From a virus: a DNA stretch of 36,033 nucleotides. Location: positions 1 to 36,033 of the IMG/VR virus record IMGVR_UViG_3300045119_000178; one strand, 5' to 3'. The notes beneath the pieces were generated by a model. The model was not told the DNA's origin. It searched no databases and saw only the letters and a program-made list of their open reading frames with translations. The position numbers and the translations under genes were made by a program. Shown here piece after piece: positions 1,681 through 36,033 of the stretch (the first letter of the stretch is position 1; every line of letters begins with the position of its first letter).

Positions 1681-2001
1681 ATGCAGACCAAATTATCGGT
1701 GACCGGCTGTTCATCTTCCTGCGCATCTTTTTCGGATAGCGCCAACGAGAAAAAGATTTTCTATCTTGGAAAATGGCGCAAAGTTGGCGACAAAGTCCGA
1801 TACGATTACGCGAAAGGATTTCGAAAACTCTTTCGATTTCCGATAGTTTTTATTAGCCCGGAAGCGTGCGCCGAAATCCAGCTTCCGAAATGGTGGAATA
1901 ATTCCGGCTCGTGGCGGAAAGCTCCTGAGCGCGAACGCAGGGCGACAATAATAGGGAACACGATTTGTCCGACGAGCGACAGGCCGTCGTGGATGAAATG
2001 A
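1681..2001 (+). CDS. Hypothetical protein opening the accessory island, 106 aa
   Basis: The product is about 106 aa from ATG 1681. The frame is also open from ATG 1597, which has a GGAG ribosome site and would give 134 aa with a basic-hydrophobic N-terminus (KKLALFLLLQC) like a signal peptide. However, that N-terminus is encoded by the intrinsic terminator hairpin. The body contains several Trp and aromatic residues (FYLGKWRKVGDKVRYDY) and no family is recognised. Its TGA (1999-2001) overlaps the ATG of the glycosyltransferase gene at 1998, the same 4-base junction used throughout this island, which supports translation. The start is uncertain. Confidence 0.5.
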   Translation: MQTKLSVTGCSSSCASFSDSANEKKIFYLGKWRKVGDKVRYDYAKGFRKLFRFPIVFISPEACAEIQLPKWWNNSGSWRKAPERERRATIIGNTICPTSDRPSWMK

Positions 2002-2828
2002 TCACGCGCACGCACAACGGTTATCATTTAGGTGATAACCTCGTTCACTTGAATTTCCTGCGGAAAGTGGCGCTCGCCAATCCCGACAGAAGTTTTGTTC
2101 ATGCGGCGCAATGGCAATATCTCCCGGAACTTCAGCCAGTGGTCGCAGACGTTCCGAATATCAAGCTCTCGGATATAAACTACATGACGCCGCCGAGTTC
2201 AATCGACTCATGGCGCGGAACGCAAGGTTTTTGGTATCATCACGAGGACCGCAATGATTTTGTAAAGTTCCACGTTGAATCGTGGTTTCCGTATCTTGCC
2301 AGGCGCATGGGCGTCGAGAACCCGGTTATGAAGCCGGAGGACATGCTTTTTGATTATCCTGCATTGAAGAACGCCAAATTGCCTCCTGAATTTGGGAAAC
2401 CATTCGACGTTTTGGTTGTCAACAGCGCTCCCGGATCGGGACAATTCCAAGGATTCGATCAATATGAACTTGGTTTGCTCGCCGTGAAGATAGCTCGGAA
2501 AACTCTCAAAGTGGTAGCCACTGCCGAAATGCCAAATCTAGGCACATGGATGCTCTCAAATACGAGCGAGTGGACCGAAAGTCCGTTGATAAGTTCCCGG
2601 TTCAATTTGAACTGCACACAGATAGGGGCGCTCAGTTTGCTTTGTCATACAATCCTGATGGTCAGCACCGGCCCGAGCTGGCCGACGTTCAACATTTGGA
2701 ATCAGGACAGCGTAAAGCTGCGCGTGATCCTTTTGGATTCGGAACGGGTCAACCTCGCGCCACATACGGTGCATTACAGTAAGGTTGAAGAAGCTGCTGA
2801 GATTTTGAAAGGAGCCGGACTATTATGA
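1998..2828 (+). CDS. GT9 (heptosyltransferase)-like glycosyltransferase, 276 aa
   Basis: The N-terminal motif HNGYHLGDNLVHLNFLRK resembles the LGD-x(2)-HLPFL start of GT-B enzymes of family GT9, which transfer ADP-heptose or similar sugars to lipopolysaccharide. A central VVNSAPGSGQ and a late STGPSWPTFNIW resemble the nucleotide-sugar binding half. At 276 aa it is shorter than typical heptosyltransferases (about 320-350 aa). I chose the ATG at 1998, which overlaps the upstream TGA, over a TTG at 1965. It should act in the host cytoplasm on a nucleotide sugar, but donor and acceptor are unknown. The gene ends in an ATGA overlap with the next one. The family match is by eye. Confidence 0.65.
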   Translation: MITRTHNGYHLGDNLVHLNFLRKVALANPDRSFVHAAQWQYLPELQPVVADVPNIKLSDINYMTPPSSIDSWRGTQGFWYHHEDRNDFVKFHVESWFPYLARRMGVENPVMKPEDMLFDYPALKNAKLPPEFGKPFDVLVVNSAPGSGQFQGFDQYELGLLAVKIARKTLKVVATAEMPNLGTWMLSNTSEWTESPLISSRFNLNCTQIGALSLLCHTILMVSTGPSWPTFNIWNQDSVKLRVILLDSERVNLAPHTVHYSKVEEAAEILKGAGLL

Positions 2829-2980
2829 ACTTAAATCGGATTATATGTTGGTTTCGCGGACACGTTTGGCGAGTCGTTGGAGATAAAAAAACCTCCGAAT
2901 TGTTGAAATGTAGACGCTGCCAAAAATTTAGGCGGCAGAAGCCGTATCTTCCACCGGACTACCTGAGAATTGACCTATAA
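2825..2980 (+). CDS. Small DUF1660-like zinc-ribbon protein, 51 aa
   Basis: A 51-aa basic protein whose start overlaps the previous stop as ATGA. It has an N-terminal CWFRGHVW (Cys and His) and a central CRRC, giving a possible Cys-x-His plus CxxC zinc site similar to the phage DUF1660 family. No enzymatic role is implied. It sits inside a sugar-modification island and its stop overlaps the E1 beta-like gene start by 11 bases. Confidence 0.6.
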   Translation: MNLNRIICWFRGHVWRVVGDKKTSELLKCRRCQKFRRQKPYLPPDYLRIDL

Positions 2981-3494
2981 AGAAGAACTAACTGCTGCAA
3001 TGGAAGCCATGGCAACCGATCCGCTTGTTCGCTTCATCGGCTATGGCGTAAAGATCGGCGGACGCGCAATGGGAACGCTGAAGAATGTTCCTGATTCGCA
3101 ACTGATCGAAATGCCGGTTGCGGAATCTTTGATGGTCAGCTTTGCAATCGGCCTGTCGCTAAAGGGTCTGAAGCCGGTGGTTTTCATTGAGCGGTTTGAT
3201 TTCATCCTCAACGCGATGGACGCAATCGTAAATCATCTAGACAAGATTGGTGAACTGAGCCATGGCGAATTCAACCCGACAGTGATTCTTCGGATTGTGG
3301 TTGGCAACCGTGACAAACCGCTTTTCACCGGCAAGACGCACACGCAAGATTTCAGTTACGGGTTACGGCAATTCGTGAAATTTCCTGTCGTCCAGTTGGT
3401 GCAAGCGAGCGACATTAAATTTCAGTACGAAGCTGCGCACCGCCATCTTGGGCAGCATTCAACCGCGCTCGTTGAGTACAAAGACCTGACATAA
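2970..3494 (+). CDS. Truncated E1 beta-like thiamine-diphosphate enzyme (PYR domain), 174 aa
   Basis: The TTG start at 2970 is chosen because MTYKEELTAAMEAMATDP aligns with the conserved beginning of E1 beta subunits of 2-oxoacid dehydrogenases (MTYREAL...DP). The motif PVAESLMVSFAIGLSLKG carries the conserved Glu (about residue 52) that activates thiamine diphosphate. The region THTQDF matches the family's HxQ segment. Canonical E1 beta proteins are about 325 aa, and the C-terminal transketolase domain is missing here. Together with the E1 alpha-like gene at 5028 it could form a minimal 2-oxoacid decarboxylase or carbon-carbon ligase. The next gene starts in a TAATG overlap. The substrate is not known. 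Confidence 0.75.
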   Translation: MTYKEELTAAMEAMATDPLVRFIGYGVKIGGRAMGTLKNVPDSQLIEMPVAESLMVSFAIGLSLKGLKPVVFIERFDFILNAMDAIVNHLDKIGELSHGEFNPTVILRIVVGNRDKPLFTGKTHTQDFSYGLRQFVKFPVVQLVQASDIKFQYEAAHRHLGQHSTALVEYKDLT

Positions 3495-4144
3495 TGACCG
3501 ACGAAGATATTCTGTCGCAATTCAGAAATGAGCGATATGAGGCATTAAATGCTGTCCGTTGGGCGCATTTTCTTTCGCTTGAGATTTCGTTAGAGGGCAA
3601 AACGATATTTGAGCCTGGGGCAGGCGTCGGCGATCAAACAGCATGGCTATTGAATCAAGGTGCGAAGCTCATTTACGTGAGCGATGGCAGGTTCGAAAAT
3701 CTTGCTATCATCGCTGCGCGTTTCATCGGCGATTTACGGTTAGCTATTATTCCCGGAGACCTCGAATTTTGCCTTGTGGGATCTCAGTTTAGGCTCAACG
3801 TCGATTTCATCTTTTGCTATGGAGTTTATTATCACTTGAAAGAAAGTTCGGATTTCAGAATCATGCGCGAGTTGTCCGCCGTCGGTCAGACAATCGCCTT
3901 TGATTTTCTGGCTGGGAACGACAACGAAGTTTCCTATGGCTACGACAATCCCAGCACTTCCATTAGCGGCTACGGATTCAGACCGCGACCTGAGAGCTTG
4001 GTTGCAGCTCTAAAAGAAATTTGGGGTTACGCTTATCTTCCGAAAGAACAGTTAAAATGGATTGATCCGGTGCAAGCAGAGCAACGGATGGTGGCGATCG
4101 CATCTCACGCGCCCTTGCGTAATCCGAATCTCATTCGCCAATGA
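3494..4144 (+). CDS. SAM-dependent class I methyltransferase, 216 aa
   Basis: Motif I is FEPGAGVGDQT at about residues 39-49. It is followed by an acidic position after a strand (YVSDGR) and a YYHLKE segment like motif IV/post-IV regions of class I methyltransferases. The length of 216 aa is usual for a small-molecule or sugar methyltransferase. No target-recognition domain for DNA is seen, and there is no DPPY or PC motif, so a DNA methyltransferase is unlikely. It lies between the E1 beta-like and MDR genes, overlapping the latter by ATGA, so methylation of the island's product is a fair inference. Confidence 0.75.
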   Translation: MTDEDILSQFRNERYEALNAVRWAHFLSLEISLEGKTIFEPGAGVGDQTAWLLNQGAKLIYVSDGRFENLAIIAARFIGDLRLAIIPGDLEFCLVGSQFRLNVDFIFCYGVYYHLKESSDFRIMRELSAVGQTIAFDFLAGNDNEVSYGYDNPSTSISGYGFRPRPESLVAALKEIWGYAYLPKEQLKWIDPVQAEQRMVAIASHAPLRNPNLIRQ

Positions 4145-5031
4145 AAGCCGCGATATTGGAAAAGATCGGAGCGCCTTTGAGAGTCTCGGATATTAGACTT
4201 CCTAAAACTTTGCAGCACGGCCGGGTTCTTGTGAAAGTTCTTTGTACTGGCATCTGTGGCTCGCAGTTACAGGAGATTGACGGCATCAAGGGCGATTCAG
4301 CGCACCTACCGCATCTGCTTGGGCATGAAGGTTGTGGGATAGTTGAGGGCGTGCGTACGGACTCCTACAAGTTTAAGATTGGAGACAAGGTCGTAATGCA
4401 TTGGCGAAAAGGTTCTGGAGCGGATGTAGTTGGCGGCACTTATGGCGGAATCAGATCGGGTCCGATTACGACGTTCTCCGAATACTCCATCGTCAGCGAA
4501 AACCGTTTGACTAAGATTGACGACGACGTTCCGAACGATTTTGCAGCGCTTCTCGGCTGCGCGCTTTCAACCGCCTTGGCGATTGTCGAGAAGGAAACTC
4601 AAAACGATCAATGCATAATCGTGATAGGGTGCGGCGGAGTTGGGCTTGCGTTAATTCTAGTGTCCAAAATGATAAGTTCATTCGTCGCGGGGTTTGACCG
4701 AGTTAAATCAAAACGTGCTTTAGTCGAAGCACTCGGCGCTCAATGGATAACTCGTATGGTTAAAGCTGACGTTCTTATCGACACGATTGGAGGATACCGC
4801 GATTACGTTTCTCGCGGTAAATATGTTTCTCTCCAAGACGGCGGCACTTCTGCCGGGGGCTTCGATCCGCCGAAAGACATTCCGCGATACGTCCAGATGT
4901 GGCGCGATGGTTTGCTAAACGATTATCCAAAGATCGTCACGCATCGAATTTCTCTGGATCAGATCAATGAAGGAATCCAACTCATGCGCGAAGGGAAAGC
5001 CGGACGCGTGATGATTGAAATGAACCAATGA
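4141..5031 (+). CDS. Zinc-dependent MDR (alcohol dehydrogenase-like) oxidoreductase, 296 aa
   Basis: The catalytic zinc ligands of the medium-chain dehydrogenase family are visible as GICGSQ (Cys39) and GHEGCG (His62, Glu63). A Rossmann motif IGCGGVGLAL follows at about residue 160. At 296 aa it is shorter than the usual 340-360 aa, and the four-Cys structural zinc lobe is absent; a Gly-rich loop stands in its place. It probably oxidises or reduces an alcohol or sugar carbonyl with NAD(P). Both ends overlap neighbours by ATGA. Its place between the methyltransferase and the E1 alpha-like gene suggests a shared pathway. Confidence 0.85.
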   Translation: MKAAILEKIGAPLRVSDIRLPKTLQHGRVLVKVLCTGICGSQLQEIDGIKGDSAHLPHLLGHEGCGIVEGVRTDSYKFKIGDKVVMHWRKGSGADVVGGTYGGIRSGPITTFSEYSIVSENRLTKIDDDVPNDFAALLGCALSTALAIVEKETQNDQCIIVIGCGGVGLALILVSKMISSFVAGFDRVKSKRALVEALGAQWITRMVKADVLIDTIGGYRDYVSRGKYVSLQDGGTSAGGFDPPKDIPRYVQMWRDGLLNDYPKIVTHRISLDQINEGIQLMREGKAGRVMIEMNQ

Positions 5032-5696
5032 CTGCCGAAGCTCTTATCGCTTTTGAATCCGGGGTAAAAGCTTCGTGGGAATCCGGCTTTCTTCCTTCGC
5101 TGATTCATCTTTGCGGCGGAAACGAGAATCAATTGATCGAGATTTTCAAAGAGATAAAACAAGGCGATTGGGTGTTTTCCACACATCGCACGCATTACCA
5201 TGCGTTGCTCGCTGGAATCGATCGACGGCTTCTATCGCTAAAGATTGCCGACGGCGATTCGATGTTTGTTTATTCAAAGGAGCGCAATTTTCTTTGCAGC
5301 GCGGTTCTCGCTGGATGTTGCGGGATTGCTGCCGGGATCGCGTGGGCGATTAAGAACGAATGGAAACCGCCCATATTTGGATGGGACAGCTTCGATGGAA
5401 AGGACGCGAATGTTTGGTGTTTCATTGGCGACGGTGGCGAGGAACAAGGCCATTTCTACGAGGCTGCGCTGTTCATAGAAGCTAACGACTTGCCTTGCAC
5501 GTTCATTATAGAGGACAATGACCGGAGCGTTGATACTCCGCGTTCATATCGACGCGGCAGTGCAAAGGGGCTTGAGCATCTTTTCAAATGCGTTCGGCGT
5601 TATCATTACATACCGACATTTCCTCACGCCGGCAGCGGTTGCAATTTTAAGATTGAATTTGATAAGGAAGCAATCGAAAGGCTGAAGCGCAGATGA
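5028..5696 (+). CDS. E1 alpha-like thiamine-diphosphate enzyme (PP domain), 222 aa
   Basis: The thiamine-diphosphate binding motif GDG (residues 134-136) is followed 27 residues later by Asn164 in EDND, the GDG-x(24-27)-N pattern of this superfamily. GDWVFSTHRTHYHALLAG matches the E1 alpha segment before the cofactor site. Normal E1 alpha subunits are 320-400 aa, so this is a reduced form lacking much of the C-terminal part. Its partner is probably the E1 beta-like protein encoded at 2970, although two genes separate them, whereas such subunits are usually adjacent. It overlaps both neighbours by ATGA. Confidence 0.8.
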   Translation: MTAEALIAFESGVKASWESGFLPSLIHLCGGNENQLIEIFKEIKQGDWVFSTHRTHYHALLAGIDRRLLSLKIADGDSMFVYSKERNFLCSAVLAGCCGIAAGIAWAIKNEWKPPIFGWDSFDGKDANVWCFIGDGGEEQGHFYEAALFIEANDLPCTFIIEDNDRSVDTPRSYRRGSAKGLEHLFKCVRRYHYIPTFPHAGSGCNFKIEFDKEAIERLKRR

Positions 5697-6415
5697 AAAC
5701 GGCGGTTCTAATCTCAGGTCAGATGCGGACATTTGCGAAGTGCTATCCGACACAGCGCTGGCAAATCTTTAGACATTACGAGCCGGACATTTATTTCTTC
5801 GTTAGCTGCTGTGACGATGCACAGGCCGACAGCGCATCCTTGTTGCTGCGCGATTACGAGAACGTCCATTGCGAGCGGCTAAAAGACCCTGATGATCTTC
5901 CCTCGATTCCTATTCAACAAGGCTACCACGCGCCATATGCGAACGCGGCGAGCCATGCCAAGCTAATGTTGCAGCATTGGGGAAACAAAAGGGTTTGGGA
6001 ATTTTTCAGGTCGAAGGCAGAATCTACTTCATTTGACACGATCATTCGTATCCGTCCTGACATTTGGATTCACAGATTTCAGAAACCTTCGGTAAGCACA
6101 TATTTTGAAATCGATTTGCGAACAGTATTAGCGCCTTGGTGGGGGAAATTCGGAGGGATTAATGACCGATTGGCAATTGTTGGAAAAGAAGCTGCGTCGA
6201 TTTATTTCGGCCTGTATGATATAATTCCAACACTGCTTGAGAAGGGATGCCCGTTCCACCCTGAAACGTTACTGGCCGAAACCCTGCGAACTTCCGGCAT
6301 GAATGTCGAGAACACGCTTTTGACCGAATTCTCGACAGAACGAATGGACGGCTCGCGTCGTTGGGCTGAGATTGTCACAAGCGATATGGTTGAATTTATA
6401 GCTGCCACAAAATGA
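5693..6415 (+). CDS. Probable sugar-transferase-like protein, 240 aa
   Basis: The N-terminus KTAVLISGQMRTFAKCYP followed by a middle RIRPDIWI matches proteins found in capsule and LPS gene clusters that are annotated as glycosyltransferase-like. These motifs probably form part of a GT-A-like nucleotide-sugar site, but a clear DxD is not obvious. The length (240 aa) is in the usual range. It sits in the island between the E1 alpha-like gene and a zinc-ribbon gene, with ATGA overlaps on both sides. Donor and acceptor are unknown. Confidence 0.6.
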   Translation: MKTAVLISGQMRTFAKCYPTQRWQIFRHYEPDIYFFVSCCDDAQADSASLLLRDYENVHCERLKDPDDLPSIPIQQGYHAPYANAASHAKLMLQHWGNKRVWEFFRSKAESTSFDTIIRIRPDIWIHRFQKPSVSTYFEIDLRTVLAPWWGKFGGINDRLAIVGKEAASIYFGLYDIIPTLLEKGCPFHPETLLAETLRTSGMNVENTLLTEFSTERMDGSRRWAEIVTSDMVEFIAATK

Positions 6416-6609
6416 TAACACCTGCCGTCCCACCAGAATATAAATGCTTGTTATGTGGACACGATCCACATCCTGATTCATATGGCCATTCTTACATGCC
6501 AAGAAAACTTCCAAGGCACAATCCCGAACGCTGCCGAGAAGGTAAAGCGCGGCCACAAGATCAGATTCCAACCAAAGCCGGAGCCGTATATCCTATCGCT
6601 AATCAATGA
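6412..6609 (+). CDS. Small zinc-ribbon-like protein, 65 aa
   Basis: The start overlaps the previous stop as ATGA and the stop overlaps the next start the same way, which is the main support for translation. The sequence has a CLLCGHDPH motif and a later Cys after PRHNPERC, so a His/Cys zinc site is plausible. The last third is Lys/Arg/Gln-rich. No family is recognised. Confidence 0.6.
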   Translation: MITPAVPPEYKCLLCGHDPHPDSYGHSYMPRKLPRHNPERCREGKARPQDQIPTKAGAVYPIANQ

Positions 6610-7325
6610 GCAACCTATTTGTGCCAATCCTGGACAACGGACAAGGCTACATCCGGCGCAATTTCTTCTTTTCCTTCCTCCGCTCTTTTCACGGCATTGA
6701 CGTTCACACTGAGGCATTCTCCGACAGCTTACCCTCGCGCGCTCGTAATCGAGCAGCTGGATATTTCCTTCGGGATACGACGCGTGACTACATTCTTTTC
6801 ATCGATACGGACATTATCTTCGAGAAAACGCACATCGATATGTTGATGGAATCGGATGAGCCTATTCTTGCGGGGATTTACTGCAAAAAGGGCAAAGGGA
6901 TCGATCCCTGCTTAAACACGCTTCCTGGACACGTTGAGACACAATGCGGCGGTTATCAAGAGATTGCTCGCGCTGGTACCGGCTTTCTCCGCATCCATCG
7001 CTCAGTCTTGGAAAAGATGAAGGACGTGGGAAAATACAATAGAAATTGGGCTAAATATTACAAGAACCACGGCGTTGATGAATGGGAATTCTTTCCCGTC
7101 GGCGTCGTAAATGAGGAATTTTTGTCTGAAGATTGGTATTTCTGCGACCGGGCAAGAGCTTTAGGATTCAAGATCATGCTCGACACGCGCATACAGCTAA
7201 GGCACGAAGGCACAGCCATTTATCCGATTGAAGAAACGATCCAAAAACAGATGGAAGAAGCTGGCGGGAAAGCTACCGTCGAGCAAATTGCGTCTGAACA
7301 AGCTACAGTGGAGTGTAAAGAGTGA
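6606..7325 (+). CDS. GT-A fold glycosyltransferase-like protein, 239 aa
   Basis: The sequence SRARNRAAGYFL followed by DYILFIDTDI (DTD at residues 67-69) is the usual nucleotide-sugar and metal site of GT-A glycosyltransferases. LAGIYCKK and the late EDWYFCDRARALGF match the acceptor-side ED-x-xFC region of GT2-like phage enzymes. The C-terminus contains ATVEQIASEQATVECKE, an internal repeat of the gene-end cassette described at 7287-7320. The stop overlaps the next start as GTGA. It probably transfers a sugar made or modified by the upstream enzymes, but this is inferred from context. Confidence 0.75.
   Translation: MSNLFVPILDNGQGYIRRNFFFSFLRSFHGIDVHTEAFSDSLPSRARNRAAGYFLRDTTRDYILFIDTDIIFEKTHIDMLMESDEPILAGIYCKKGKGIDPCLNTLPGHVETQCGGYQEIARAGTGFLRIHRSVLEKMKDVGKYNRNWAKYYKNHGVDEWEFFPVGVVNEEFLSEDWYFCDRARALGFKIMLDTRIQLRHEGTAIYPIEETIQKQMEEAGGKATVEQIASEQATVECKE
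7287..7320 (+). repeat. Gene-end cassette, copy 1 (ATVECKE type)
   Basis: About 34 bases at the 3' end of the glycosyltransferase gene, containing GTCTGAACAAGCTACA then TGGAGTGTAAAGA. The copy at 20641-20677 (minus strand) differs at only two positions over about 37 bases. It encodes the end of one protein and also carries GGAG, the ribosome site of the next gene. Confidence 0.8.
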
Positions 7326-7498
7326 GTTACAAGCCTGAAATGGTCGCCCTAACTCCGCATGAATGTGCAGAGCAATTTCGGATGTATGCCAGAGCAAACA
7401 AGGATAATCCTGAGGCAGTTCATCAACTCAATTTCTGCGCTGACTTTTTGGACGAATACTGCAAACCAGCTGCTACAGTGGAGTGTAAAGACAAATGA
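7322..7498 (+). CDS. Hypothetical protein ending in the cassette peptide, 58 aa
   Basis: GTG start overlapping the previous TGA, with the ribosome site GGAG supplied by the repeat. The product is acidic, has four Cys and ends ATVECKDK. The central part (CAEQFRMYARANKDNPEAV) looks helical. No family is recognised. The stop overlaps the next ATG. Confidence 0.6.
   Translation: MSYKPEMVALTPHECAEQFRMYARANKDNPEAVHQLNFCADFLDEYCKPAATVECKDK
7471..7498 (+). repeat. Gene-end cassette, copy 2
   Basis: TGCTACAGTGGAGTGTAAAG followed by ACAAATGA. It encodes ATVECKDK-stop and includes the overlapping start codon of the following gene. Confidence 0.8.
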
Positions 7499-7662
7499 AC
7501 GATGAAGAAATTGAAGCACTCGCGCGAAGGTATGCCGAGAGCTTAGTGTCCGTTCAGTTACCCGACGATGAATGGATTGAAGAAGCAGTCCGCCATTTTA
7601 TCCGGTTTCGTCAAGAAACGGCTACAGTGGAGGGTAAAGACCAAGTGACACCTCCCAATTAG
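7495..7662 (+). CDS. Hypothetical acidic protein ending in the cassette peptide, 55 aa
   Basis: ATG overlaps the previous TGA. The protein is helical and acidic (NDEEIEALARRYAESLVS, then DDEWIEEAVRHFIRF), and its end is ATVEGKDQVTPPN. The last five residues extend beyond the cassette, so a stop or start seems to have been lost or altered there. It is the last gene of the accessory island and precedes a neck gene by two bases. Confidence 0.55.
   Translation: MNDEEIEALARRYAESLVSVQLPDDEWIEEAVRHFIRFRQETATVEGKDQVTPPN
7620..7648 (+). repeat. Gene-end cassette, copy 3
   Basis: GGCTACAGTGGAGGGTAAAG then ACCAAGTGA, a diverged copy. GTG replaces ATG at the position where copies 2 and 5 have the start codon of the next gene, but no long frame follows from that GTG. 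Confidence 0.75.
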
Positions 7663-7664
7663 CG

Positions 7665-7988
7665 ATGGGTTTAGCCGATAATATAGACTTGGCATTGATC
7701 GATGCTTTTCTAGCTACGGGCACAACGTTCAAATGGCAGGGGCAGGATTACGGGTGTGTGCTAAACGCCGATCAGAATGTTCTCGTGACTTCCAAACGGC
7801 TCTTTGGAGCGAATCTGCCGAAGGCCGGTGATGTGATAAATTTGGCTGGAAAAGATCGGCAGATTACGGGTCGCGCGAATTCCGCAGAAGAATTCGTTCC
7901 CGGCGGTCTCAGCGCTGAGAACACGTTCGTCGACGATCCAGCAAACCCAAGCTTGGCAATTCAATTCAGCAGTTTTATCGGAACATAA
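7665..7988 (+). CDS. Probable head-tail connector protein, 107 aa
   Basis: The size, the beta-rich character (FKWQGQDYGCVLNADQN, then DRQITGR) and the position ahead of the tail genes fit the small neck or head-completion proteins of siphoviruses such as the lambda FII type. No diagnostic motif is visible, so the role rests on context. It starts two bases after the end of the accessory island, and is followed by the SEC-C gene after three bases. Confidence 0.5.
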   Translation: MGLADNIDLALIDAFLATGTTFKWQGQDYGCVLNADQNVLVTSKRLFGANLPKAGDVINLAGKDRQITGRANSAEEFVPGGLSAENTFVDDPANPSLAIQFSSFIGT

Positions 7989-34794: not shown

Positions 34795-36033
34795 GTGAGC
34801 AAGATTAAGATTCCGGCGGCGCTCTTTCGCTCGGCTGAATTTGAACGTGCCTCGATCGATATAGAGCAAAAGACTGCAACGCTTTCCGTCTCTTCCGATC
34901 AACCTTACGAGCGATATTTCGGGACTGAAATCCTGAGTCACAAGGATGGCGCAGTTCGTTTGAACCGTCTGAATCGCGCGGGGGCGCTCCTATTCAATCA
35001 CGACCGGAACGCGCACATCGGGCGGGTCGTTTCAGCCGGGGTGGACGGCAGCAAGCTCAACGTCACTGTGAAATTTGGCAATTCGCCGTTGGCCAAGGAA
35101 AAGTTTCAAGACATTCACGACGGCATTCTTCAGGAAGCTTCCATTGGTTACGAGATTCACAAGATGGAGGAGGACAAGGATCAAAAGTCGTTCACGGCTA
35201 TTGATTGGGAGCCGCATGAAGTTTCGATGGTGACGGTTCCTGCTGATCCGTCTGTTGGAATGGGGCGCGATCTTTTGACCAAGGAACTCGAAATCAAAGA
35301 CCGCCAAGTTGACAACAAATCAAAAACGAACATGAGCGAACCAATCATAGTGAACGAACCCGCGCCCGAAGCCGTGAAGGCGGCTGAAGAAAATGCGGTC
35401 AAAGAATTTCAGAAACGTTGCAAGCGAATCGACGACCATGTCTCGGCTATCAAAAACGCCAAATGGCGCGAAACCGCTGCGGAGATCGCCGCCAAGCACA
35501 AGCAAGAGAAAGCGGATTTCGAGGCCTTCCGTGCTGAGTGCAACAATTCTTTCGATCCGGCCAAACACATTGAGACGCCGAATACCAGCACCGGAATGGG
35601 CAAAGGCGACCGGAAACGGTTCTCCGTTCGCAAGCTGATCCTGGAAGCCTTCGTTCACGGAAGGCTCACCGGATTGGAAAAGGAAGCCTGCGAACATGCG
35701 CGTGAACAGCTTCGCGCGGCGGGGGATAACGTTCTTGATACGCGGGAAGGATTCACGCTCCCGGAGGACATGGCTTTGTCCAATTTCGCGGAAGATCACG
35801 ATTTGGATTCTCGCGGGATGAATCGAGTCCTTGAAGAAGTCCGCCAATTGAAACAAGCACAAACGCGCGGTTTGCAGGCCAGTGTTCAAAATCTCGGAGG
35901 TTATCTGATCGGCACTGATCTTCTGACCGGATCGCTGATCGAATATCTCCGCGTCAAAACGACCGTAGCAAACATGGGCATCCGTATGCTCGATGGCTTG
36001 GTCAACAACGTTGCAATCCCGCGCGTGACCGGA
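34795..36033 (+). CDS. Prohead protease-scaffold-capsid fusion, N-terminal part (continues at 1-802)
   Basis: GTG at 34795 starts a 637-aa gene that continues past the contig ends. Residues 1-165 are an HK97-type prohead serine protease: LLFNHDRNAHIG (His69), EASIGYEI (Ser116) and WEPHEVSMVTVPAD (Glu142) fit the catalytic set. Residues about 180-290 are a charged coiled coil like a scaffold or delta domain, starting at an in-frame Met180 (ATG 35332). The capsid domain follows. In most HK97-like phages protease and capsid are separate genes, so this is a natural fusion or uses the internal start to make free capsid. No stop exists between domains. Confidence 0.8.
   Translation, partial: MSKIKIPAALFRSAEFERASIDIEQKTATLSVSSDQPYERYFGTEILSHKDGAVRLNRLNRAGALLFNHDRNAHIGRVVSAGVDGSKLNVTVKFGNSPLAKEKFQDIHDGILQEASIGYEIHKMEEDKDQKSFTAIDWEPHEVSMVTVPADPSVGMGRDLLTKELEIKDRQVDNKSKTNMSEPIIVNEPAPEAVKAAEENAVKEFQKRCKRIDDHVSAIKNAKWRETAAEIAAKHKQEKADFEAFRAECNNSFDPAKHIETPNTSTGMGKGDRKRFSVRKLILEAFVHGRLTGLEKEACEHAREQLRAAGDNVLDTREGFTLPEDMALSNFAEDHDLDSRGMNRVLEEVRQLKQAQTRGLQASVQNLGGYLIGTDLLTGSLIEYLRVKTTVANMGIRMLDGLVNNVAIPRVTG
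35907..36033 (+). repeat. Terminal direct repeat, right copy (contig closure overlap)
   Basis: Identical to 1-127 and in the same capsid frame. Removing one copy gives the 35,906-bp circular map. Confidence 0.95.

Follow-up and report, generated by a model that had tools for sequence, protein, structure and literature searches.

A phage gene module pairing a dehydrogenase with a minimal E1-type thiamine diphosphate enzyme, and its possible role in sugar branching

The window analysed here is the whole 36,033-nucleotide stretch of the IMG/VR virus record IMGVR_UViG_3300045119_000178. After its capsid gene, and before the conserved head/tail genes resume at 7665, it carries a single run of plus-strand genes, for a GT9-like glycosyltransferase, an E1beta-like protein (PYR domain), a methyltransferase, a zinc-dependent medium-chain dehydrogenase/reductase (MDR) and an E1alpha-like protein (PP domain). 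All of the reading frames named in the first-pass annotation of this DNA are present, and Pfam supports its PYR, PP and MDR assignments. The core of the module is a dehydrogenase plus a thiamine diphosphate (ThDP) enzyme, to which the GT9-like transferase may be added; a sugar transferase of some kind usually accompanies the pair. The way in which the parts are swapped between phages shows that they work as one pathway. Our tentative reading, to which we give a probability of roughly 0.4, is that of a sugar-tailoring module: a keto-sugar, probably a heptose, would be made, a two-carbon branch added, and the product transferred by the GT9 protein. The first interpretation, a sugar or carbonyl modification pathway, is thereby partly supported, and extended by the finding that a radical S-adenosylmethionine (SAM) protein can stand in for the MDR, and a transketolase for the small E1.

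Distribution, co-occurrence and exchange

IMG/VR was scanned with the E1alpha, E1beta, MDR and radical-SAM proteins, giving about 290 loci, among which pieces of a single contig sometimes overlap. Since the loci were fetched through these four anchors, absolute frequencies are biased, but no query included the partner. The carriers are nearly all viral, mostly from lakes and oceans. They include two cultured phages, Synechococcus phage S-SM2 and Prochlorococcus phage P-TIM68, and an uncultured phage of 735 kb. Among 50,697 phage records, full-length matches to E1 occur only in these three, the MDR only in S-SM2 and P-TIM68, and the radical-SAM protein only in the 735-kb phage. A scan of genome contigs with two degenerate patterns found at least three cellular carriers, all metagenome-assembled genomes (MAGs), two archaeal and one of the Desulfobacterales. 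Among 395 genomes of the phylum of the latter only that MAG itself matched, and none of the plasmids scanned carries the module. This suggests that it is rare in cells.

Exactly one dehydrogenase gene accompanies 161 of the 166 distinct copies of the ThDP enzyme, with a median gap of 3 bp, and no copy has two. Four of the five remaining copies lie on contigs that are cut where the gene would be; the fifth is that of the Desulfobacterales MAG, where the ThDP gene is flanked on either side by other radical-SAM genes. The first-pass annotation had named scattered, unrelated cargo as the outcome that would speak against a pathway. With one dehydrogenase per ThDP enzyme, a co-occurrence far beyond chance, that explanation is rejected. 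In a literature search no publication was found that describes the module or its gene set in phages, and the first-pass annotation likewise knew of no described phage pathway with this set. The S-SM2 protein SSM2_198, annotated as a “transketolase central region-containing protein”, and the family phrog_34187 represent the same family in a fused form; its function is listed as unknown, and partner swapping was found in no paper.

Both partners are repeatedly exchanged. The ThDP enzyme may be a split mini-E1, a fused mini-E1, a full-length E1 or a split mini-transketolase. Its dehydrogenase partner is of one of two unrelated types, the MDR or a radical-SAM protein, with the radical-SAM type in most relatives. 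The radical-SAM protein is combined with a split mini-E1 (79 copies), a fused mini-E1 (3) or a split mini-transketolase (4), and the MDR with a fused mini-E1 (51), a split mini-E1 (11), a full-length E1 (7) or a split mini-transketolase (6). E1-type copies are as a rule of the mini form, and only 7 of 156 distinct ones are full-length E1. On a tree of 49 E1alpha sequences the dehydrogenase type changes six times (5–6 in bootstrap trees, 15 with shuffled labels), and at least three of the changes are forced by well-supported branches. In six loci (L108, L130, L133, L143, L146 and L148) full-length E1alpha (∼321 aa) and E1beta (∼358 aa) adjoin the same MDR, and on the E1alpha tree a long branch lies between the full-length and the mini forms.

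The exchange of the ThDP enzyme is clearest in four loci (L258, L266, L269 and L270) that are close to a fifth, L006. Their capsid proteins are 93–97% identical to those of L006, the GT2-domain proteins 86–98%, the GT9 proteins 88–94%, the radical-SAM proteins 80–82% and the product of the next gene (148 aa) 89–93%. The E1beta and E1alpha genes of L006 are replaced in place by the N and C halves of a transketolase (213 and 151 aa). Because this replacement has occurred between otherwise near-identical phages, the two enzyme types do equivalent jobs, and it is the strongest sign that both carry the same step.

Enzyme families of the module

The E1beta-like protein of the window matches PF02779 (Transket_pyr, E = 4e-7, above the family cut-off) and the E1alpha-like protein PF00676 (E1_dh, E = 4e-17). 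Both pieces are matched by halves of phrog_34187, a fused phage family of 405 columns (1.5e-61 and 2.5e-46), and the earlier description as a split mini E1 holds, the subunits being PP-only and PYR-only. The ThDP residues, on which the first-pass annotation had staked its proposal, are in place. The window copy of E1alpha has the motifs GDG (134–136), EDN (162–164) and HRxHxH (53–58), and G134, D135, E162-D163-N164, H53, R54, H56 and H58 are invariant in 87 of 87 distinct sequences, G136 in 86. E1beta residues E52, E74, R75, D77 and H124 are invariant in all 94 sequences aligned; by alignment, E52 is the ThDP-activating glutamate and H124 has the position of the catalytic histidine of E1beta. 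Profile searches align mini-E1 alpha with human pyruvate dehydrogenase (PDH) E1alpha (3exe, 1.8e-17), and mini-E1 beta with the E1beta of 1ik6 (3e-14) and of Thermus thermophilus (1um9/1umd, 1.5e-12). Here E52 falls on the TPxxE motif of 1ik6, and H124 on the histidine of HHSQ in chain B of 1um9/1umd. By these PP and PYR motifs the phage enzymes can be placed in the ThDP-dependent E1 superfamily.

The median sizes across the loci are 204 aa for E1alpha, 172 aa for E1beta and 400 aa for the fused form. To judge from these sizes, both subunits end after the PP or PYR domain. The enzymes thus share with the PDH E1 of human (3exe) and T. thermophilus (1umd) the GDG...N motif, the RxH loop, the PYR glutamate and histidine, and profile similarity, but they lack the C-terminal parts of about 120–150 aa and are often fused as PP-PYR. 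To our knowledge they are the smallest E1-type ThDP enzymes, consisting of PP and PYR domains only. No E2- or E3-like genes were noticed among the neighbours of the ThDP genes in the loci inspected. Because the C-terminal domains and the E2/E3 partners are missing, the mini-E1 is not a member of a PDH complex. Ratios of dN/dS of 0.09–0.14, from a few gene pairs with unsaturated dS, suggest purifying selection. Decay of the genes was considered and rejected, given the invariant active-site residues, the low dN/dS and the MDR alignment.

The MDR of the window (PF08240, E = 6e-16) belongs to a family in which the catalytic zinc ligands C39, H62/E63 and C140 and the motif GxGGxG are kept in 75 of 75 aligned sequences. 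No structural-zinc cysteines occur in the corresponding loop of the phage rows inspected in this alignment. The absence of the structural zinc lobe, a four-cysteine element that many zinc MDRs have, was correctly remarked on in the first reading of the window and is a trait of the phage MDR family. The window protein (296 aa) is shorter than the family median of 338 aa, with about 40 aa missing in the Rossmann domain; its closest relatives are equally short, and its dN/dS of about 0.14 suggests constraint.

The radical-SAM partner has a core CX3CX2C motif (C41, C45, C48) and four C-terminal cysteines (C280, C298, C339, C343), all invariant in 93 of 93 sequences. These four would be expected to bind one auxiliary cluster, as in the four-cysteine-ligand type. 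For BtrN, an oxidizing radical-SAM enzyme, one auxiliary cluster with four cysteine ligands has been described (PMC9012708). By sequence, the nearest solved relatives of the phage protein are MoaA, which acts on GTP, and BlsE, which acts on a nucleoside sugar; BtrN is absent from its PDB sequence matches. The likeness to BtrN, a twitch radical-SAM dehydrogenase of the 2-deoxy-scyllo-inosamine pathway, lies in the four C-terminal cysteines beside the core motif and in the two-electron oxidation of an alcohol, the role proposed for the phage protein. The BtrN-type oxidation is carried out by an MDR in other aminoglycoside pathways, a parallel to the swap seen here.

Two further radical-SAM proteins occur near the module. 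In three close relatives of the window (L003, L170 and L172; e.g. L170, 8695–9486) a second, unrelated protein of about 263 aa is encoded between E1beta and the MDR; it was not counted as a partner family. Another radical-SAM/SPASM family (“YHPKRVAEW..”) adjoins E1alpha/beta in cellular and large-phage loci (L086, 7547–10935; L085, 6717–7772; L046, 5878–6930).

The GT9-like protein of the window has no Pfam match. Its AlphaFold model, built from a 31-sequence alignment (pLDDT 93), best matches GT9 heptosyltransferases among PDB structures (Z 13.2–13.8: 3tov 13.8, WaaF 1psw 13.6, WaaC 13.5), in agreement with the name first given to it. The first sugar enzymes outside GT9 are UDP-GlcNAc 2-epimerases, at Z 10.9. 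Three plant chains of the photosynthetic complex NDH-PSI also score 12.7–13.3, so the predicted GT9 assignment rests on fold plus context. With WaaC, WaaF and TibC the fold is common (Z 12.6–13.8), whereas the phage proteins are only 8–13% identical to them and shorter (median 254 aa). GT9 homologues occur in 80 of the 166 loci. Directly upstream of the GT9 gene, small freshwater phages encode a GT2-domain protein of 561 aa (L006, 3955–5640; present in 58 of the 166 loci), likely a second transferase of the same operon.

The methyltransferase of the window is below threshold in Pfam (E = 0.09). A viral scan with it as query gave no match, which at first suggested unrelated cargo; this was overturned by a 41% identical homologue beside the mini-transketolase and radical-SAM genes of the four loci related to L006. 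As the window type is found in both MDR/E1 and radical-SAM/transketolase loci, it is a recurring option of the module. Other loci have, directly before the dehydrogenase gene, a short-chain dehydrogenase/reductase (SDR; about 25 loci) or a methyltransferase of PF13489 (S-SM2 and eight or nine others); Pfam, phmmer and the annotation of the records distinguish the methyltransferase of S-SM2 from the SDR-like protein of P-TIM68.

Proposed chemistry and its alternatives

A connection to heptose comes from the cyanophage-type loci, the 64 loci that combine the MDR with a fused E1, a full-length E1 or a transketolase. In 57 of them a kinase closest to heptose-7-phosphate kinase (TIGR02198, 1e-31) follows close 3' of the ThDP gene. 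Such loci also have an ADP-heptose epimerase homologue (TIGR02197, 4e-61), with nucleotidyltransferase, SIS, HAD, cupin and SDR genes nearby. In the small phages, including the complete genome of the window, none of the kinase, epimerase and SIS families tested was found with our own profiles, by which an unrecognized member could be passed over. The lipopolysaccharide (LPS) of cyanobacteria, including marine Synechococcus, is generally without heptose (PMC4515613). For this reason cyanophages would have to bring the nucleoside diphosphate (NDP)-heptose pathway, whereas its last steps would be enough for small phages whose hosts make heptose. The GT9 fold and the NDP-heptose genes of cyanophages tie the module to sugar chemistry. 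The sugar pathway first suggested is thus well supported by neighbours and fold, the branched or acylated nature of its product being a further deduction.

In the first of the proposed steps the MDR (zinc/NAD) or the radical-SAM enzyme would turn a single secondary hydroxyl into a ketone by oxidation, on a sugar, probably a heptose, that is either activated or has already been transferred. The heterodimeric mini-E1 (PP + PYR), which lacks the C-terminal domains that serve E1 in dimerization and E2 docking, would then take a small 2-oxo compound as donor, with pyruvate, hydroxypyruvate or a ketose as candidates, and convert it to an acyl- or glycolyl-ThDP carbanion. Addition of this two-carbon unit at the ketone would yield a C-branched sugar. 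Optionally, an SDR may reduce the product or a methyltransferase methylate it. Finally, the GT9-like transferase would attach it to an acceptor, most likely on the virion or cell surface, since the cluster sits inside the late head-tail operon in small phages.

Such chemistry has precedents. The E1alpha/beta-like pairs AviB1/B2 and Plm8/9 (= Pau11/12) add a pyruvate-derived two-carbon branch onto 4-keto-sugars, and EvdU5/S3 of everninomicin has been proposed for the same role (PMC4802897, PMC4425429, PMC10338323). As in the phages, the avilamycin (AviB1/B2), paulomycin (Plm8/9) and everninomicin clusters have an E1-type alpha + beta pair without E2/E3, alongside keto-sugar-forming, methyl- and glycosyltransferase genes. 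The obligatory dehydrogenase of the phage module fits a branching role, because two-carbon addition needs a ketone. In contrast to the phages, the antibiotic clusters belong to bacterial secondary metabolism, and their keto group is made by a 4,6-dehydratase or a decarboxylase rather than an MDR or radical-SAM enzyme. On the best reading the mini-E1 would work like the AviB1/B2 type, by analogy, and is not classed as such. YerE of yersiniose A is also a ThDP enzyme that adds a C2 branch to a keto-sugar, but it is a flavoprotein of the acetolactate-synthase type, from another ThDP family.

Several points weigh against this reading. The gene module itself is shown, but its product and reaction direction are deduced. 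The likeness to the AviB1/B2-type pairs is one of description rather than direct sequence comparison, and Pau11/Pau12 are full-length (325/345 aa). A single-sequence AlphaFold model of a fused mini-E1 (L070) reaches a pLDDT of 34. The shortened MDR of the window could be impaired, and some loci have no recognizable GT9 protein. The usual donors of E1 and of transketolase differ, and the exchangeability of the two enzymes could also be read as C–C cleavage.

The best-placed alternative, in our estimate unlikely but worth weighing, is supply of a precursor. The ThDP enzyme would be a small transketolase or acyloin synthase making a ketose phosphate (sedoheptulose-7-phosphate or an analogue) for NDP-heptose synthesis, with the dehydrogenase preparing donor or acceptor. 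The split transketolase that replaces E1 in some loci, the kinase-like gene of the 57 loci and the heptosyltransferase fold of the GT9 protein all favour it. However, the small phages, including the window, showed none of the kinase, epimerase and SIS families, the hosts already make sedoheptulose-7-phosphate, and the obligatory dehydrogenase, with a radical-SAM enzyme as its alternative, is left unexplained.

The same genes might instead serve cleavage, the ThDP enzyme removing a two-carbon or acyl unit from the keto-sugar and so shortening or remodelling it. Both transketolase- and E1-type chemistry can cleave, and BlsE, the near relative of the radical-SAM partner, is a decarboxylase. Against this, those E1-like pairs that are known from sugar clusters add carbons, and no case of an E1-type enzyme cleaving NDP- or glycosidic keto-sugars is known to us; we regard removal as distinctly improbable.

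A role as auxiliary metabolic genes (AMGs) that boost host energy or nucleotides through pyruvate/acetoin or pentose-phosphate metabolism is very unlikely. The S-SM2 and P-TIM68 genes are annotated as transketolase, and viral tkt genes have been read in that way (PMC4053976). Against this stand the missing E2-docking and C-terminal domains, the lack of E2/E3 genes noted above, and the constant linkage to a dehydrogenase and glycan genes. Least probable is that a remodelled sugar serves to hypermodify virion DNA, one of the targets first named: phage DNA glycosylation exists in general, but no evidence points to DNA here, no nucleotide-modifying enzymes were noticed in the loci inspected (a search that was not exhaustive), the cluster lies in a late structural operon, and the GT9 fold resembles LPS and protein heptosyltransferases.

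The sugar-branching reading can be taken further, to a virus-dominated pathway whose ThDP carboligase, reduced to two domains, and interchangeable MDR or radical-SAM enzyme build a C-branched heptose for the virion or host surface, the transferable unit being a reaction pair and not one enzyme family. In this full form it is plausible but doubtful. If true, phages, including the cultured S-SM2 and P-TIM68, would make a rare branched sugar with minimal E1-type ThDP enzymes, mini-E1 pairs would be attractive simple carboligases, and glycan tailoring could be the role of some viral genes that now pass, under the names “transketolase” and “alcohol dehydrogenase”, for central-carbon AMGs. The natural swaps of MDR for radical SAM and of E1 for transketolase are a ready-made test of the conserved reaction.

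The window genome and other features of the locus

Coordinates are given in Table 1. The island had been drawn from 1681 to 7662; its genes from GT9 onward stand, while 1681–1964 has no convincing coding sequence. The two last proteins, taken as transferase-like, have only weak or uncharacterised family matches, and lie outside the conserved core.

Table 1. Genes of the module and adjoining reading frames in the window
Feature	Position	Strand	Length	Remarks and evidence
GT9-like (heptosyltransferase-fold) glycosyltransferase	1965..2828	+	287 aa	likely true start ATG 1998 (MITRTHN.., by alignment) rather than TTG 1965; AF2 model, PDB structure matches, homologues
Open reading frame (ORF) with Cys pairs (zinc-ribbon-like)	2825..2980	+	51 aa	overlaps E1beta start; not conserved, matched by own window copy only; ORF list
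Mini-E1 beta, PYR domain only	2970..3494	+	174 aa	PF02779, phrog_34187 C-half, alignment, PDB E1beta matches
SAM methyltransferase, motif FEPGAGVGDQ	3494..4144	+	216 aa	directly 5' of dehydrogenase gene; weak Pfam, 41% identical homologue
Zinc MDR alcohol dehydrogenase	4141..5031	+	296 aa	PF08240, 75-sequence alignment, phrog_2640
Mini-E1 alpha, PP (ThDP/Mg) domain only	5028..5696	+	222 aa	PF00676, alignment, PDB E1alpha matches
Conserved protein, possible transferase, not core	5693..6415	+	240 aa	weak DUF7796/phrog_13607; common mainly to close relatives
phrog_1574 protein, weakly GT-A-like, accessory, not core	6606..7325	+	239 aa	weak/uncharacterised family match

The genome of the window phage is complete, with an exact direct repeat of 127 bp at its ends (1–127 and 35907–36033), and can be closed to a circle of about 36 kb. 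A GpA-type terminase, a lambda-type portal and a prohead protease are encoded at 26–36 kb, and the gene of the major capsid protein lies at the start; a protease-capsid fusion gene spans the genome ends (34795–36033 + 2–802).

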